Shown: piece by piece, positions 1 to 12,045 of the stretch
Numbering within the stretch: the first letter of the stretch is position 1
Layout: each line of letters starts with the position of its first letter
Origin: Steroidobacteraceae bacterium
GTDB taxonomy: Bacteria; Pseudomonadota; Gammaproteobacteria; Steroidobacterales; Steroidobacteraceae
NCBI GenBank assembly: GCA_025458905.1
Contig: JALORN010000020.1
Location: 1-64,000 of the forward strand
Direction: 5' to 3'
Length of the DNA stretch: 64,000 nt
The notes under the pieces: model-generated
Database searches by the model: none
What the model was told of the DNA's origin: nothing
What the model saw: only the letters and a program-made list of their open reading frames with translations
Made by a program: the position numbers and the translations under genes

Positions 1-801
1 TCACGCGCGGGCCTGGAGGTTGCGGATCACGCGCTGGTCGAGCCAGGTCTCGGTGTCGAGCACGTGGCGTTCCTGCACCTGCTGCAGCTGCTGCAGCAGT
101 AGCATCAGCAGGATCGACAACAGCAGCGCGATCAGCGTGGAGTTGAAGGCGACGCCGAGGCCCTCGGTGACGCCCGAGATGTCGCCGGTGACCGCCTTGT
201 GCGCCTGCGACAGCGCGTCGCCGATGCCGCGCACGGTGCCGATGAAGCCGATGGCAGGGATCGCCCAGGCGATGTAGCGCAGCATCGAGAGCTCGGAGTC
301 GAGCCGCTCGGCCTCCGACTGGCAGACGGCGTGGGCGACCGTCGAGGCATCCTGCACGTTGCGCGTCGCGCCGAAGCGCGCCAGCGCCGCGAGCACCGCG
401 CGCGGCACCAGCAGGTTGCGCTGCTCGACCGGCAGGCTCTCGATCTGCCGCGAGTACTCGCGCGTGTCCTCGGGCAGGATCTTCATGCCCTCGGCGAGCT
501 TCAGCGGCGCCTGCTCGAGCGCGCGCGCCTCCTCGCGCTGCGCGAGTGCCTTGTAGCCCATCAGCGCCAGCGCCCAGAGCATCAGCACGATGGTCGCCTC
601 CTGCTCGTAGTCCTTGACCACGATGTAGATCGAGCGCTGCGGCACGTAGTTGGGGTCCGCGGCCATCTTCTCGCGGTCGCCGGTCATGATCGCCTCGGCC
701 ATCGGCCGCACGTGCAGCACGTAGGCCGAGTGCACGATCACGATCGCCAGCGCCAGCGACACCAGGGTGAAGAAGAATTCGTTGGGCAGTTTTCGGTTCA
801 T
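1..801 (-). CDS. MotA/TolQ/ExbB-type proton channel protein
   Basis: A 266-residue inner-membrane protein with four hydrophobic segments at about residues 9-29, 68-85, 174-192 and 218-238. The stretch AIPAIGFIGTVRGI (179-193) matches the proline/GTVxG motif of the third helix of ExbB/TolQ/MotA proteins, and GLGVAFNSTLIALLLSI matches their last helix. Family members form the ion-conducting stator of machines powered by proton flow. The ATG at 801 overlaps the stop of the upstream proline-rich gene by 4 bp, so the two are probably translationally coupled. It is the last visible gene of a seven-gene run; a TolR/MotB-like partner would be expected just beyond the left edge but cannot be seen. Family call firm, role unknown. 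Confidence 0.85.
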   Translation of the reverse strand: MNRKLPNEFFFTLVSLALAIVIVHSAYVLHVRPMAEAIMTGDREKMAADPNYVPQRSIYIVVKDYEQEATIVLMLWALALMGYKALAQREEARALEQAPLKLAEGMKILPEDTREYSRQIESLPVEQRNLLVPRAVLAALARFGATRNVQDASTVAHAVCQSEAERLDSELSMLRYIAWAIPAIGFIGTVRGIGDALSQAHKAVTGDISGVTEGLGVAFNSTLIALLLSILLMLLLQQLQQVQERHVLDTETWLDQRVIRNLQARA

Positions 802-7722: not shown

Positions 7723-9084
7723 TCACTTGCGTGAGTTGCGCTTGTATTCCTCGTATTCCTTCCAGAGCTTCTCCTTCAGCTCCGGATCGGTCTCCTGCTC
7801 GGCCGCGCGGCGCAGGCGCCGCGCGACGATGTCGTCGTCGTCCCCCGAAGGCCGGCTGCGATCCGGGCCGCCGCTGCCGGCGCCGGACACCGTGCCGCGA
7901 TCCTGGCCGTTGCCGCCGCCAGCCGACTCGCCGCGGCCGGAGGACTGCGAGGCACCCTCGGCGCCGTCCGCGCCCTCGGACCGCAGGTCGCCGGGGCGCC
8001 CGCCTGCGCCGGCGAGCGTCCCGTCGCCGAGCCCACCGCCTGCGCCGTCACCCTCGGAGCTGCTGCCGGCACCGGTCGCGGAGCGCGAGTCGCGCTCGGC
8101 GGCGTTGCGCGCCTGCTCGCCGGCGAGCGTCTTGTCGAACTGGCCGAGACTCTCCTCGAGGCGCCGGTCGAGCACCGCGCGGCGTTCCTCGGGCGTCATC
8201 ACCGTCCCGGCGGAACCGCCGCCGCCCGCACCGGCACCGGCCGCACCACCGCCCGCCGCGGCGCCACCCGCACCGGCACTGCCCGCACCGCCACTGCCGG
8301 CGCCAGCACCCGCGCCGGCCCGGCCCGCCGCGCCACCCATGGCGCCGGCTTCGGTCCCGGCAGAGCCACCCGCGCCCGCGCCAGCGCCCGCACCGCCGCC
8401 CTGCCCGGTCGTTCCGGCACCGGCCCCGCCGCCGCCGGCGCCACCGCCGGCCGGATCGCCGGGCGTGCCCGCGCTGTCGCCCCGGCCGCCCGTGCCGGCA
8501 CCCGGCATGCCGGGCAGCCCCGGCAACCCGGGCAGGCCGGCCTGCGGCGGGTTCACTGTGACCGAGCCGTCGGGATTGCGCGTGACGCTGCCTGCGCCGG
8601 TGCCGACCGTGGTCGAGACGCCGCCACCGGCCTGACCCGCCGTACCGGTCTCGGTACCCGCGGAACCGCCGCCACTGCCGTTGCCGCCCGCACTGCCGTT
8701 GCCGGAGGCACTGCCGCCGGGGGTACCCGCGCCGGCGCTGCCGCCCATGCCACCGCTGCCGGATTCGCTGCCGCCCGCGGCGCCGGGCAGCCCCGCGCCA
8801 CCGCCGCTGCTGCCGCCGGAACTGCTGCCCGAACTGCCGCCGGCGCTGCCGGGCAGGCCGGCGCCACCGCCGGCACTGCCGCCGCCGGTGGTGCCGGGGA
8901 TGCCGGCCCCGCCACCGCCGCTGCTGCCACCGCCCGTGCTGCCACCCCCGCTGCTGCCACCCCCGCTCGGCGAAGGCATGCCGGCACTGCCACCGCCGCC
9001 CGAGCTCTGCTGCTCGGGACAGCCGGACAGCAGCAGCGCGAGCGCGCCGCCGACCAGGACGCGGACCGGGAGCGAAGCGGTCAT
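7723..9084 (-). CDS. Glycine/serine-rich low-complexity lipoprotein
   Basis: A 453-residue protein. The start MTASLPVRVLVGGALALLLSGC gives a lipoprotein signal with Cys at about 22. From residue about 25 to 290 it is almost purely Gly, Ser, Ala, Thr and Pro in irregular short repeats (GGGSSGGGS, AGLPGSAGG types). A more ordinary segment follows (VMTPEERRAVLDRRLEESLGQFDKTLAG), then another Gly-rich stretch and a charged helical tail (DPELKEKLWKEYEEYKRNSRK). The stop-start overlap with the upstream lipoprotein is 4 bp. The long glycine tract could be an extended, flexible or self-associating surface polymer. The reading frame is supported by the signal, tail and operon position, although very G+C-rich low-complexity DNA makes shadow frames common here. 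Confidence 0.7.
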   Translation of the reverse strand: MTASLPVRVLVGGALALLLSGCPEQQSSGGGGSAGMPSPSGGGSSGGGSTGGGSSGGGGAGIPGTTGGGSAGGGAGLPGSAGGSSGSSSGGSSGGGAGLPGAAGGSESGSGGMGGSAGAGTPGGSASGNGSAGGNGSGGGSAGTETGTAGQAGGGVSTTVGTGAGSVTRNPDGSVTVNPPQAGLPGLPGLPGMPGAGTGGRGDSAGTPGDPAGGGAGGGGAGAGTTGQGGGAGAGAGAGGSAGTEAGAMGGAAGRAGAGAGAGSGGAGSAGAGGAAAGGGAAGAGAGGGGSAGTVMTPEERRAVLDRRLEESLGQFDKTLAGEQARNAAERDSRSATGAGSSSEGDGAGGGLGDGTLAGAGGRPGDLRSEGADGAEGASQSSGRGESAGGGNGQDRGTVSGAGSGGPDRSRPSGDDDDIVARRLRRAAEQETDPELKEKLWKEYEEYKRNSRK

Positions 9085-9797
9085 GTGCCCGGGTCGCCGG
9101 CGGCGGCGGTCACTTCCCCGCCGCCCTGGAAGAAGGAGCGCAACTGCTCGGCCATGCGATTGCAGGCCGTGCCCTCGACGCGCGCGATGAACGGCAGCGG
9201 CACGACCGCGCCGACGATCGCCGAGGTGCCGGTGACGTTGGTGCCGACCGAGCCGGCCGACTTGGCCTGCTTCAGATCCCAGATGGTCGCCTCGTAGGCG
9301 GATTCCTTTTCCCACCAGCCGAAGCCGATGCAGCCGGCCGCCCCGGGCGCGGCCCCGCAGGCGAGGCTGCCGCCCCCGTCGGTCTTGCGGGTGTTGCCGT
9401 CGAGCCAGACGATGTAGCGGACGCCGGTCTCGGCGATGCGCTCGCTGACGCCCGGGCGCGACAGCACCGACGTCACACCCTCGGGCCGCGTGGGCGCGGT
9501 GCCCGGCTCGAACCACGGGAACAGCTGGTCGACGAACTTGTCGTTGTCGCGCACCTGCAGCTTGCGGCTGCCCGAACCGAGGTTGCCACTGACGCAGTCC
9601 ATGAAGCCGTCCTCGGCCGTCGCACCCTCGATCTGCGGCTTGGCGAGGATCACCACGGCCTCATGGTCGGCGATCTTGGTCTGCAGCTCGCGCGATTCCT
9701 CGATGCGGGCGGTCATGCAACCCGGGAGCAGCGCGAGACACAGCGCCGCGACCGGCAGTGCGACGGCCGGTCGGCTCGGCGGCTGGCGAAGTTCCAT
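9081..9797 (-). CDS. Lipoprotein, first gene of the kinase operon
   Basis: A 238-residue predicted lipoprotein: ATG at 9797, hydrophobic VALPVAALCLALLPGC with lipobox Cys near 31. The mature part has a segment VRYIVWLDGNTRKTDGGGSLACG and several cysteines (LACGAAPGAAGC) that could form disulfides, then a hydrophobic stretch GTSAIVGAVVPLPFIARVEG. I recognise no named family. It heads the seven-gene minus-strand run; its stop overlaps the next start by 4 bp. A promoter for the whole run would be expected in the 97 bp before it. Confidence 0.75.
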   Translation of the reverse strand: MELRQPPSRPAVALPVAALCLALLPGCMTARIEESRELQTKIADHEAVVILAKPQIEGATAEDGFMDCVSGNLGSGSRKLQVRDNDKFVDQLFPWFEPGTAPTRPEGVTSVLSRPGVSERIAETGVRYIVWLDGNTRKTDGGGSLACGAAPGAAGCIGFGWWEKESAYEATIWDLKQAKSAGSVGTNVTGTSAIVGAVVPLPFIARVEGTACNRMAEQLRSFFQGGGEVTAAAGDPGT

Positions 9798-9894: not shown

Positions 9895-12045
9895 CTAGAA
9901 GTCCAGTGACAGCTGGCCGGCCGCCGCCGCACCCGCAGCCGACGGTCGACGGAACAGGTGGGTCGCCAGCCCGAGCTCGTGGCGGGTGTCGAGGCCCAGG
10001 CGGCGACAGGCCGTCGCGAAGCGCTGCCGCAGCAGGGCGGCGAACACGCCCTGCCCGCGCATCCGCGTCCCGAACGCCGGATCGTTGTCGCGGCCGTCGC
10101 GCATCGCGGCGACCCGCGACATGACGTGCGCGGCCGTGTCCGGGAAGTGCGCCTCGAGCCACTCCCGGAACAGGGTCTTGACCTCATGCGGCAAGCGCAG
10201 CAACACGTAGCCCGCGCGGCTCGCGCCGGCGGCGGCACTGGCCTCCAGCACGCGCTCGACCTCGTGGTCGGTGAGCACCGGGATCACCGGCGCCACCAGC
10301 ACCGAGACCGGCACGCCGGCGTCGGCGAGGCGGCGCATCAGGCGCAGCCGCGCCGCCGGCGACGCGGCGCGCGGCTCGAGGATCCGCTTCAGCGCCGGAT
10401 CGAGCGTCGGCAGGCTGAGCGCGACCCGCGCGAGGCCGTCGCGGGCGAGGTCGGCGAGCAGGTCGAGGTCGCGCTCGAGCAGCGCGCCCTTGGTGACCAC
10501 CGCCACCGGATGGCGGGCCCGTGCCAGCACCTCGAGCACGCTGCGGGTGACCCGCAGCCGCTTCTCGATGGGCTGGTACGGATCGGTGTTGGCGCCGAGC
10601 ATGATCGGCTTGCAGACATAATGTGGCTTCGCCAGCTCTTGCTCGAGCAGCCGCGCGGCATCGACCTTGTAGAAGAGGCGGGTCTCGAAGTCGATGCCGG
10701 GCGAGAGGTCGACGTAGGCGTGGCTCGGACGAGCGTAGCAATTGTGGCTGATCACCCCATTCGCGATGAAGTCGCCGGTACCCGTCGTGATGTCCACCAG
10801 TTCACGACGGCCCGGCAAAGGTTCGATGTTTACGACCTCGAGGGCAGCGCTCGACTTGACCGCCATACCCTCGAGCAGGCGCTTGCGGTCGATACTCGGG
10901 TCGAACCAGTCGACGAACCGGACGAACGCTGCCAACCCACCGCGAACACGGAGGCACTGGACAGGCCGATTGACGCCCGGCCGCGGGGTGTCCAGCACGG
11001 ACTCGAATCCGAAGCAGCACAAGGCGCTGCGAAGCCGACCGATGATCGTGTCGTCGGTATTGGTCAAGCGGACGACCCCGCGCGCCGCCGAGCCCCCGGC
11101 ATCGAACATCCCTGACACGAATCCTCGCATCCAGTCCGGATCGTCGATGGGAGGCCATGCCACCAGACGGAAGACAGCCTCGACCGCGCGCCGGGAACTG
11201 CAGCGGATCGCCCGCAATTCAGCCCTTGCCGATGAGCGCCGGCTGAACAGGAACGAATCCGTGCTTACGCCAAAGCCCGAGAGGTAGGCCGCTGCCCGCT
11301 CGAGCGCCTGTCCGTCTGCCATGGCCAGCCGAAAGGTGTGACGATCCTCGGGTCCACGATCCGGCCGCGCACGGCGGTGGACGGCGAGATGGCCGTCGCC
11401 GCGGATGACCCCGCAAAGATACCCGCGGCGATAAGCCTCGACGTCGGCGAGCCTCGGCGCACGGTCCCAGTGGCCAATGCCCATCAAGGAGTTGTCGAGG
11501 GTAAGGCGCGGCCGCTGCGGCTTTACCGGGTCGTTCGCGACGAACTTCCAGCCGCGCTCGGTCAGGAATCGGTGATCCCCGCTTGCAACCAACTGTGTAC
11601 CGTCGGCCAGGGAGACCCGAAACGCGGGCTTGCGCGTCACCCACCGCGCCGTGATCACCGTGGGCACATATCGGCGGTAGTGACCGCTGCGAGACGTTCC
11701 GATGACGCGTGCGCCCGCCTCGAGTTCCGCAATGGGTCGGGTCCGACCATCCGCCATCAGTACACGCGTTGCCCCGTCTAGGCAGTAGACGCAAGCGTGC
11801 TCGCAGCCGCGATACGGATTGATCGACTGGTCGAACATGATGTCCGGCGAGTCGTTGCGGGTGACGATCGACCGGGCATGCTCCGGCAGCACCGAGATCG
11901 CGGTGCTGTCGGGCAGCGCGTCGGCCGGATCGTCGCTGCCGGCCTCCCAGCCGTCGTCCACGGCCTCGGTGACCGTGCGGGCGAAGCGGCCGGGCGGGCG
12001 CGACAGGGCACCGCGGCCCGGGGGAGGTGGGGATCGGGTCGGCAT
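9895..12045 (-). CDS. PA0069-family radical SAM protein interrupted by an intein
   Basis: The 716-residue precursor is a radical SAM protein of the PA0069/Rv2578c type with a 348-residue intein at residues 88-435; the spliced product would have 368 residues. Host landmarks are GRGALSRPPGRF, ITRND-like VTRNDSPDIMFDQSINPYRGCEHACVY before the intein and CYARPSHAYVDLSPGIDFETRL after it, so the 4Fe-4S motif CxxxCxxC is complete only after splicing. Cys81 and Cys85 lie in the N-extein, and the third ligand is the +1 Cys436. A perfect LexA box starts 2 bp upstream of the ATG, suggesting induction by DNA damage and perhaps a leaderless message. The substrate is not known; the family is related to spore-photoproduct-lyase-like enzymes. 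Confidence 0.95.
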   Translation of the reverse strand: MPTRSPPPPGRGALSRPPGRFARTVTEAVDDGWEAGSDDPADALPDSTAISVLPEHARSIVTRNDSPDIMFDQSINPYRGCEHACVYCLDGATRVLMADGRTRPIAELEAGARVIGTSRSGHYRRYVPTVITARWVTRKPAFRVSLADGTQLVASGDHRFLTERGWKFVANDPVKPQRPRLTLDNSLMGIGHWDRAPRLADVEAYRRGYLCGVIRGDGHLAVHRRARPDRGPEDRHTFRLAMADGQALERAAAYLSGFGVSTDSFLFSRRSSARAELRAIRCSSRRAVEAVFRLVAWPPIDDPDWMRGFVSGMFDAGGSAARGVVRLTNTDDTIIGRLRSALCCFGFESVLDTPRPGVNRPVQCLRVRGGLAAFVRFVDWFDPSIDRKRLLEGMAVKSSAALEVVNIEPLPGRRELVDITTGTGDFIANGVISHNCYARPSHAYVDLSPGIDFETRLFYKVDAARLLEQELAKPHYVCKPIMLGANTDPYQPIEKRLRVTRSVLEVLARARHPVAVVTKGALLERDLDLLADLARDGLARVALSLPTLDPALKRILEPRAASPAARLRLMRRLADAGVPVSVLVAPVIPVLTDHEVERVLEASAAAGASRAGYVLLRLPHEVKTLFREWLEAHFPDTAAHVMSRVAAMRDGRDNDPAFGTRMRGQGVFAALLRQRFATACRRLGLDTRHELGLATHLFRRPSAAGAAAAGQLSLDF
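10741..11784 (-). mobile_element. Intein with LAGLIDADG homing endonuclease
   Basis: A 348-residue in-frame intein. Splicing signals: Cys1 (CLDGATRVLMADG), a block-B-like SGDHRFLT with the conserved His, a block-F-like LVDITTGTGDFIANG and the C-terminal GVISHN followed by Cys+1. These predict standard class 1 splicing. The central region is a two-motif LAGLIDADG endonuclease: YLCGVIRGDG (precursor residues 209-218) keeps its metal-binding Asp217, but the second motif GFVSGMFDAGG (308-318) has Gly317 where the second acidic residue should be. The nuclease may therefore be a nickase or dead while splicing is preserved. Confidence 0.95.

Follow-up and report, generated by a model that had tools for sequence, protein, structure and literature searches.

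In the radical S-adenosylmethionine (SAM) protein MoaA of Pyrococcus abyssi, a disulfide between the N-extein cysteine at position -3 (Cys-3) and the first cysteine of the intein (Cys1) is reported to stop splicing until it is reduced (Callahan et al. 2011, as related in PMC3922620 and PMC10663303). The DnaBi1 intein of Mycobacterium smegmatis lies in the P-loop, whose serine is used both by splicing and by the mature enzyme, and splicing of this intein and of Mycobacterium tuberculosis SufB is reported to be oxidation-sensitive (PMC6195587 and PMC8891592). In addition, NCBIfam holds a curated model, NF038136, for intein-containing radical-SAM proteins of the Rv2578c family. Here we describe an intein in a 64,000-nucleotide stretch of DNA from Steroidobacteraceae bacterium (contig JALORN010000020.1 of assembly GCA_025458905.1, positions 1 to 64,000 of the forward strand; this whole stretch is hereafter the window), where it interrupts a PA0069-family radical-SAM gene at the third cysteine of the iron-sulfur cluster motif. 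The window intein shares with that of MoaA a radical-SAM host and a Cys-3 beside the catalytic Cys1, whereas MoaA belongs to another radical-SAM family and to an archaeal host; the DnaBi1 and SufB inteins have hosts and sites unlike those of the window, and DnaBi1 is a class 3 mini-intein. NF038136 matched the window precursor end to end through both its host and its intein parts, although the model is of the Rv2578c type and the window host of the PA0069 type.

The precursor is encoded on the minus strand by an open reading frame (ORF 9895-12045) of 716 codons without an internal stop. The intein occupies precursor residues 88-435, exactly the size and the coordinates given by a first-pass annotation made from the sequence alone, and the interrupted host sequence reads CEHACVY/C...HN/CYAR (slashes mark the junctions). 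Excision of the 348 residues in silico left an extein of 368 residues with one CxxxCxxC motif, CEHACVYC, in agreement with the product sizes predicted in that annotation and with its proposal that the +1 splice cysteine becomes the third ligand. These results confirm, at the level of sequence, that the ORF holds an intein at the third radical-SAM cluster cysteine. Judged from the invariant residues described below, Cys1 would attack the bond after Tyr-1 and the +1 Cys would then take over the N-extein. Cyclisation of Asn348 would follow and the exteins would be joined, whereby the +1 Cys would supply the third ligand to the [4Fe-4S] cluster in an enzyme of 368 residues.

We compared this junction with those of relatives. 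A scan of named genomes with a four-intein alignment gave at least 457 relatives, the best 80 of which were used, and several genome scans together supplied 124 loci with a profile match, a set biased to high scorers. Scores above 200 bits were reached at 114 of these loci, and 112 of the 114 carried the pattern C...C../C...HN/C[YF]A, which also served to cut out the inteins, 98 of them distinct. The two high-scoring loci without the N-side pattern, L122 at a contig start and L127 with an N-side frame break, had the same C-side junction; the remaining 10 loci scored 30-45 bits, and the ones inspected start like DnaB. Residues C1, T6, H71, D331, D338, H347 and N348 were invariant in all 98 distinct inteins, and so were Cys-3 and the +1 Cys; the alignment thus bears out the earlier view of the Cys-to-Asn terminal residues as conserved intein motifs. 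Intein-free loci showed an uninterrupted C-x3-C-x2-C-[YF]-A-R in 47 of 48 cases (the exception was L055), counted after exclusion of L025, a 22-bit match. The agreement of the junctions among homologues lies far beyond chance.

The first-pass annotation had suggested a search for same-site inteins in PA0069 homologues and knew of no intein described in this setting. Same-site inteins were found. Their hosts were mostly actinobacterial and, judged by record titles and NCBI ranks, came from Pseudomonadota, Actinomycetota, Omnitrophota, Planctomycetota, Myxococcota and Rhodothermota. Such inteins are common in the bacterial family of the window and present in other Proteobacteria, and the window intein is of a catalogued, widespread kind for which a curated model of the Rv2578c type already exists. 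What appears to be added to this record is how often PA0069 genes are occupied at this one codon, how the endonuclease has decayed by degrees, and the hit at the third cysteine in a second protein family. A literature search listed no paper with PA0069, Rv2578c or DUF5131 inteins as the subject of its title or opening abstract lines; it covered few subscription journals and is weak evidence of absence.

The family and fold of the host were assessed with profile models and structure prediction. The NCBIfam PA0069 model NF033668 scored 462.4 bits against the precursor, above its cut-off of 360, and the family assignment made at first pass holds. Pfam Radical_SAM scored 64 bits with a match starting only at profile position 42, and NF038136 scored 476.6 bits over residues 56-637, short of its cut-off of 700. 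The predicted precursor structure (AlphaFold) had a mean predicted local distance difference test score (pLDDT) of 81.7 and a predicted template modelling score (pTM) of 0.52, with five stretches below pLDDT 50, namely residues 1-38, 173-177 and 705-716 and the junction flanks 80-86 and 437-445. Compared by VIA-align, its extein parts matched spore photoproduct lyase 4rh0 (Z 16.9, 3.5 Å, 254 residues in the range 45..689), a fold likeness that goes with just 13-14% sequence identity, and the modelled host is probably a spore-lyase-like radical-SAM enzyme. In the extein tree a long branch with support 100 divided 43 from 55 rows; from the taxa on either side, we read this split as that between the PA0069 and Rv2578c types.

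The intein itself was modelled with AlphaFold2 from an alignment with 47 relatives, at a mean pLDDT of 93.3. The model was nearest to mini-inteins, which matched it at Z 19.0-19.6 with a span of 1..348 (VIA-align): 6y75 with Z 19.6 and 2.2 Å over 137 residues, 1mi8 with Z 19.3 and 1.8 Å over 132 residues, and 4o1r with Z 19.0 and 1.7 Å over 134 residues. Intein residues 114-306 matched the homing endonuclease fold of I-DmoI 4unb (Z 17.1, 2.6 Å, 173 residues), and Pfam LAGLIDADG_3 scored 33.2 bits against the precursor (cut-off 22.5). The window intein has features of class 1, namely Cys1, a C-terminal His-Asn, the +1 Cys and the Hint fold, and we assign it with confidence, on its predicted structure, to the inteins that combine Hint and LAGLIDADG domains.

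The distribution of the intein among hosts is patchy. In a sample of 200 genomes of the window's bacterial family, 131 had a PA0069 match, and in 34, the window's included, an intein matched strongly (an unbroken match of at least 150 bits); all 34 are among the 131, and we counted this occupation for mobility. One genome, G615, had two intein-occupied copies. The other 69 family genomes gave no PA0069 match; counted over the better assemblies alone, 40 of 114 gave none. In a phylum sample, 178 of 398 genomes matched the Rv2578c-intein model, none above cut-off; among the matches listed, only the window's spans the intein, and the others start at model position 334-335. A further set of 60 genomes, the window's own included, gave a PA0069 match in 23 (22 above cut-off), 4 of them with the intein. 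At one intein-free PA0069 gene (L183 in genome G553) the frame breaks a few codons past the intein site, which may reflect either a scar left by repair or a fault in the assembly.

Comparison of the two trees points to independent movement. In the extein tree the window, L064 and L146 formed a group (support 85) nested in a clade of 22 rows, all from the same bacterial family (support 99). In the intein tree the window, L064 and L146 again stood together (support 96), on the side with 71 rows, and the other 18 clade members present in that tree lay on the side with 26 rows. Forcing 21 of the clade members into one intein clade cost 83 log units (approximately unbiased test, p = 0.0012); the test used quick trees, the group was defined on the extein tree with both trees already in view, and L165, which has no endonuclease, was omitted. 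Given this conflict between the two trees, it is probable that the intein passed from one host gene to another, independently of the gene itself. In the collections searched, no phage or plasmid carrier of a PA0069-type intein was found: viral contigs gave three weak relatives (25-30% identity), and among plasmid and phage records none reached 80% coverage of the precursor at a single place.

The window's genus raised a question about the contig. The 23 further genomes of the genus that were searched all lacked a PA0069 match, and the window's genome, the sole positive one among them, measures 4.28 Mb as against 1.4-3.6 Mb for these 23 congeners. Because of this absence we considered whether the contig had been mis-binned and set the idea aside; the contig fits the genus, because the window encodes a threonine dehydratase that shares 86% identity with its counterpart in a same-genus genome (G017).

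The endonuclease of the window intein bears a mark of decay. The acid of LAGLIDADG motif 1 was kept in 93 of the 98 inteins and that of motif 2 (E/D) in 89; in the window, motif 2 reads GMFDAGGS, with Gly230 in the acid position, and L021 and L023 have GMFDAEG there. Ten of the 98, the window among them, lacked at least one acid or were shorter than 330 amino acids, and these ten retain their splice residues. They include shortened inteins from the same bacterial family (L022, 302 amino acids; L164, 328; L165, 158). In relative-rate tests, whose p values are uncorrected for multiple tests, the endonuclease part of the window intein outpaced that of L146 with all four outgroups (35:16, 30:14, 29:14 and 32:13; p 0.005-0.022), and the extein rate was even in all six comparisons (for example 37:37, 34:37 and 33:31 against L146). 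Because its second catalytic acid is lost, the window endonuclease is probably inactive. Two loci show other states of the element. At L185, also listed as L165 (genome G599), a 158-residue mini-intein, its endonuclease gone, sits at the same site and offers a natural compact intein at the same junction. In genome G517 (L180) only the tail of the intein is left, before a broken PA0069 extein, which would be a dead end of the homing cycle.

Related inteins were also found outside PA0069 genes. An unannotated stretch of the Streptomyces sp. P9-2B-2 plasmid NZ_CP129127.1 matched the window intein over its full length at 26.7% identity. It lies in a gene next to tcmP (L186:2327-4171) for a DUF5131/Gp37-Gp68 protein (Pfam PF07505, 320.6 bits), and its 335-residue intein is inserted at the third Cys, as GCDN/C...HN/CYALTLAK. 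An intein-free DUF5131 relative from Streptomyces NBC_00271 has the uninterrupted sequence GCDNCYALTLAK. A 341-residue intein at the same cysteine was present on the viral contig IMGVR_UViG_2867339791_000001 (L189:2402-4435; DUF5131, 235.6 bits) and shared 58% identity with its Streptomyces counterpart. The DUF5131 inteins scored 151-153 bits with the PA0069/Rv2578c intein profile and the intein of the Rctr197k helicase 96 bits, in what was an unsystematic comparison with inteins of other hosts. The DUF5131 inteins thus resemble the window's in being related inteins at the third Cys of the motif with Cys-3 present; they differ from it in their sequence (about 27% identity), in the motif spacing C-x6-C-x2-C and in the partner gene tcmP. 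In a tree of both groups very long branches joined the two, whose insertions may go back to one ancestral jump between radical-SAM genes. DUF5131 scored 67.6 bits against the model 'radical SAM mobile pair protein A', short of the cut-off of 355; this match and the three-Cys motif suggest that DUF5131 proteins are radical-SAM-like, which we in part presume.

Several further observations concern these non-PA0069 hosts. In Streptomyces NBC_01445 (L190) the start of such a DUF5131 intein is followed by a stop, a remnant in a broken gene that would be another dead end of homing. PADLOC matched the DUF5131 part of the NZ_CP129127.1 protein to the candidate defence models PDC-M41B (346 bits) and PDC-M30B (334 bits), and the first 100 residues of the neighbouring TcmP to PDC-M30A (83.5 bits). 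A 'radical SAM protein-like protein' of Virus Rctr197k (27% identity over 54% of the precursor) was considered as a third radical-SAM host and rejected, as it reads as an SF2-type helicase with a related intein; the record name (L179:1819-5088, APU88855.1) probably stems from the intein, because its sole NCBIfam match was the intein part of NF038136. Plasmid matches from Halobaculum and Natrialbaceae (24-27% over the intein) were likewise set aside as related intein- or endonuclease-like sequences, with no radical-SAM host in the frames read.

We consider it highly probable that the window carries a class-1 mobile intein at a fixed address in a PA0069-family gene, presumably competent in splicing and with an endonuclease that is probably dead. 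Such an element would have spread as a homing parasite whose target DNA encodes the hardly changeable GCxxxCxxC[YF]AR; once the second catalytic acid was lost, it would most likely persist only by splicing and because imprecise deletion destroys the cluster motif. Several results weigh against this account. Pfam Intein_splicing scored 21.4 bits, below its cut-off of 35.8, and the two splice-region models of NCBIfam were narrowly missed (N-terminal, 24.4 against 24.5; C-terminal, 13.1 against 15.6). In place of the block B Thr of TxxH, which the review PMC10663303 names as an intein motif residue, the window has Ser (S 74, G 24 and T 0 of 98). The conflict between the trees might also come from differential loss, long branches or the quick trees themselves. 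Compared with L064, the endonuclease part evolved evenly with three of four outgroups (30:23, 27:24 and 24:22; the fourth gave 32:18, p 0.048), and the splicing part was also faster in the window in 4 of 8 comparisons (p 0.02-0.05); the whole intein would thus evolve somewhat faster than its host, and the rates do not single out the endonuclease. One lost acid does not prove a dead nuclease, and a residual nickase is possible; the Gly codon of motif 2 might also be an error of the consensus, as the genome is a draft in 109 contigs.

A rival reading is an intein that is fully active in homing and still invading, for which the open frame, the motif 1 acid, the confidently predicted LAGLIDADG fold and the probable independent movement of the lineage would speak. 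We think this rather improbable, since Gly replaces E/D in motif 2 and just 9 of the 98 inteins lack this acid, the clearly decayed L022, L164 and L165 among them. An unspliced insertion in a dead gene, without a working intein, is very improbable indeed: dead remnants do occur elsewhere (G517, Streptomyces NBC_01445), but here 716 codons are open, the splice residues are kept and the extein has evolved evenly with its sisters in every comparison.

The first-pass annotation had also held that the 4Fe-4S site cannot form without splicing. This proved too strong: in the unspliced precursor Cys1 stands in the place of the third ligand, and CxxxCxxC is present before and after splicing in all 98 inteins. 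The precursor could hold a cluster or a metal through Cys1. The part of the claim that stands is that such a cluster would not lie in an active barrel; with the C-extein barrel not in place, the precursor should be no active enzyme. Occupation of Cys-7, Cys-3 and Cys1 by a metal or cluster would be expected to block splicing as well. The annotation had proposed that splicing could act as a redox- or metal-sensitive switch. In a version of this idea that benefits the cell, oxygen or metal would lock Cys-3 and Cys1, the precursor would wait, and reduction would free splicing and a fresh cluster site when a cluster can be built. The presence of Cys-3, Cys1 and the +1 Cys in 98 of 98 inteins agrees with this, as do the redox trap published for P. 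abyssi MoaA (PMC3922620 and PMC10663303) and the splice residues retained by same-site inteins with a lost or decayed endonuclease. The intein model also matched 3nzm, a DnaE intein with its N-extein in a redox trap (Z 16.7, 2.6 Å, 146 residues), although many inteins match equally or better. We nevertheless regard a beneficial switch, plausible as the idea is, as unlikely. The host needs Cys-3 as a cluster ligand whether an intein is present or not, and the conservation of this residue is therefore uninformative on regulation; the splice residues are needed anyway wherever the enzyme is needed, and sequence conservation cannot separate a switch from a by-product. The lack of a match to the host gene in the 23 congeners and in 69 of the 200 family genomes indicates that neither the gene nor a switch is generally needed. 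For the parasitic class-1 intein that we favour, a Cys-3/Cys1 disulfide or a metal on Cys-7, Cys-3 and Cys1 would be a likely chemical property of the site.

A broader idea would place several families under one rule. The third radical-SAM cysteine may be a recurrent intein site, occupied in PA0069/Rv2578c proteins, in DUF5131/Gp37-Gp68 proteins and, by report, in MoaA, where we take the +1 residue of the P. abyssi intein to be the third ligand of the MoaA motif. At each such site Cys1 would complete a mimic of the cluster motif, and the precursor could be held through this first nucleophile by a disulfide, by metal or by a nascent cluster, so that cluster supply or redox state would be the signal that releases splicing. 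We offer this as a tentative idea that is doubtful at present.

The features of the locus are collected in Table 1. Further along the window, a minus-strand frame at 7723-9516 has a lipoprotein-like LLSGC followed by a long stretch of low complexity that is rich in Gly and Ser.

Table 1. Positions of the precursor gene parts and of the residues discussed, numbered along the window
Feature	Position	Strand	Remarks
N-extein	11785..12045	-	Precursor residues 1-87, end ...YRGCEHACVY
Radical-SAM ligand 1 codon	11803-11805	-	In N-extein
Radical-SAM ligand 2 codon (Cys-3)	11791-11793	-	In N-extein
Intein Cys1, predicted first nucleophile	11782..11784	-	CxxC with second ligand (Cys-3); Cys in 98/98
Intein	10741..11784	-	348 residues; predicted Hint splicing domain ~intein residues 1-83 + 306-348, with LAGLIDADG domain ~114-303 inside
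Block B His, intein residue 71, SGDH	11572..11574	-	98/98; coordinate derived from residue numbering
LAGLIDADG motif 1, YLCGVIRGDGH, intein residues 122-132	11389..11421	-	Acid D130 present
LAGLIDADG motif 2, FVSGMFDAGGS, intein residues 222-232	11089..11121	-	Gly230 codon 11095-11097
Intein C-terminal His347-Asn348	10741..10746	-	98/98
+1 Cys, predicted third [4Fe-4S] ligand of spliced enzyme	10738..10740	-	From host motif and junction comparison
C-extein, rest of PA0069-family radical-SAM barrel including stop codon	9895..10740	-	

In the PA0069 family, this site would bring two cysteine chemistries together in one place, as the splice acceptor becomes a ligand of the cluster. Within one lineage and at one codon, intact, acid-lost and endonuclease-less versions of the intein form a natural series for the question whether radical-SAM inteins are sensors or mere parasites lodged where they are hardest to delete, and the DUF5131 cases indicate that the third cysteine has been hit in a second family.

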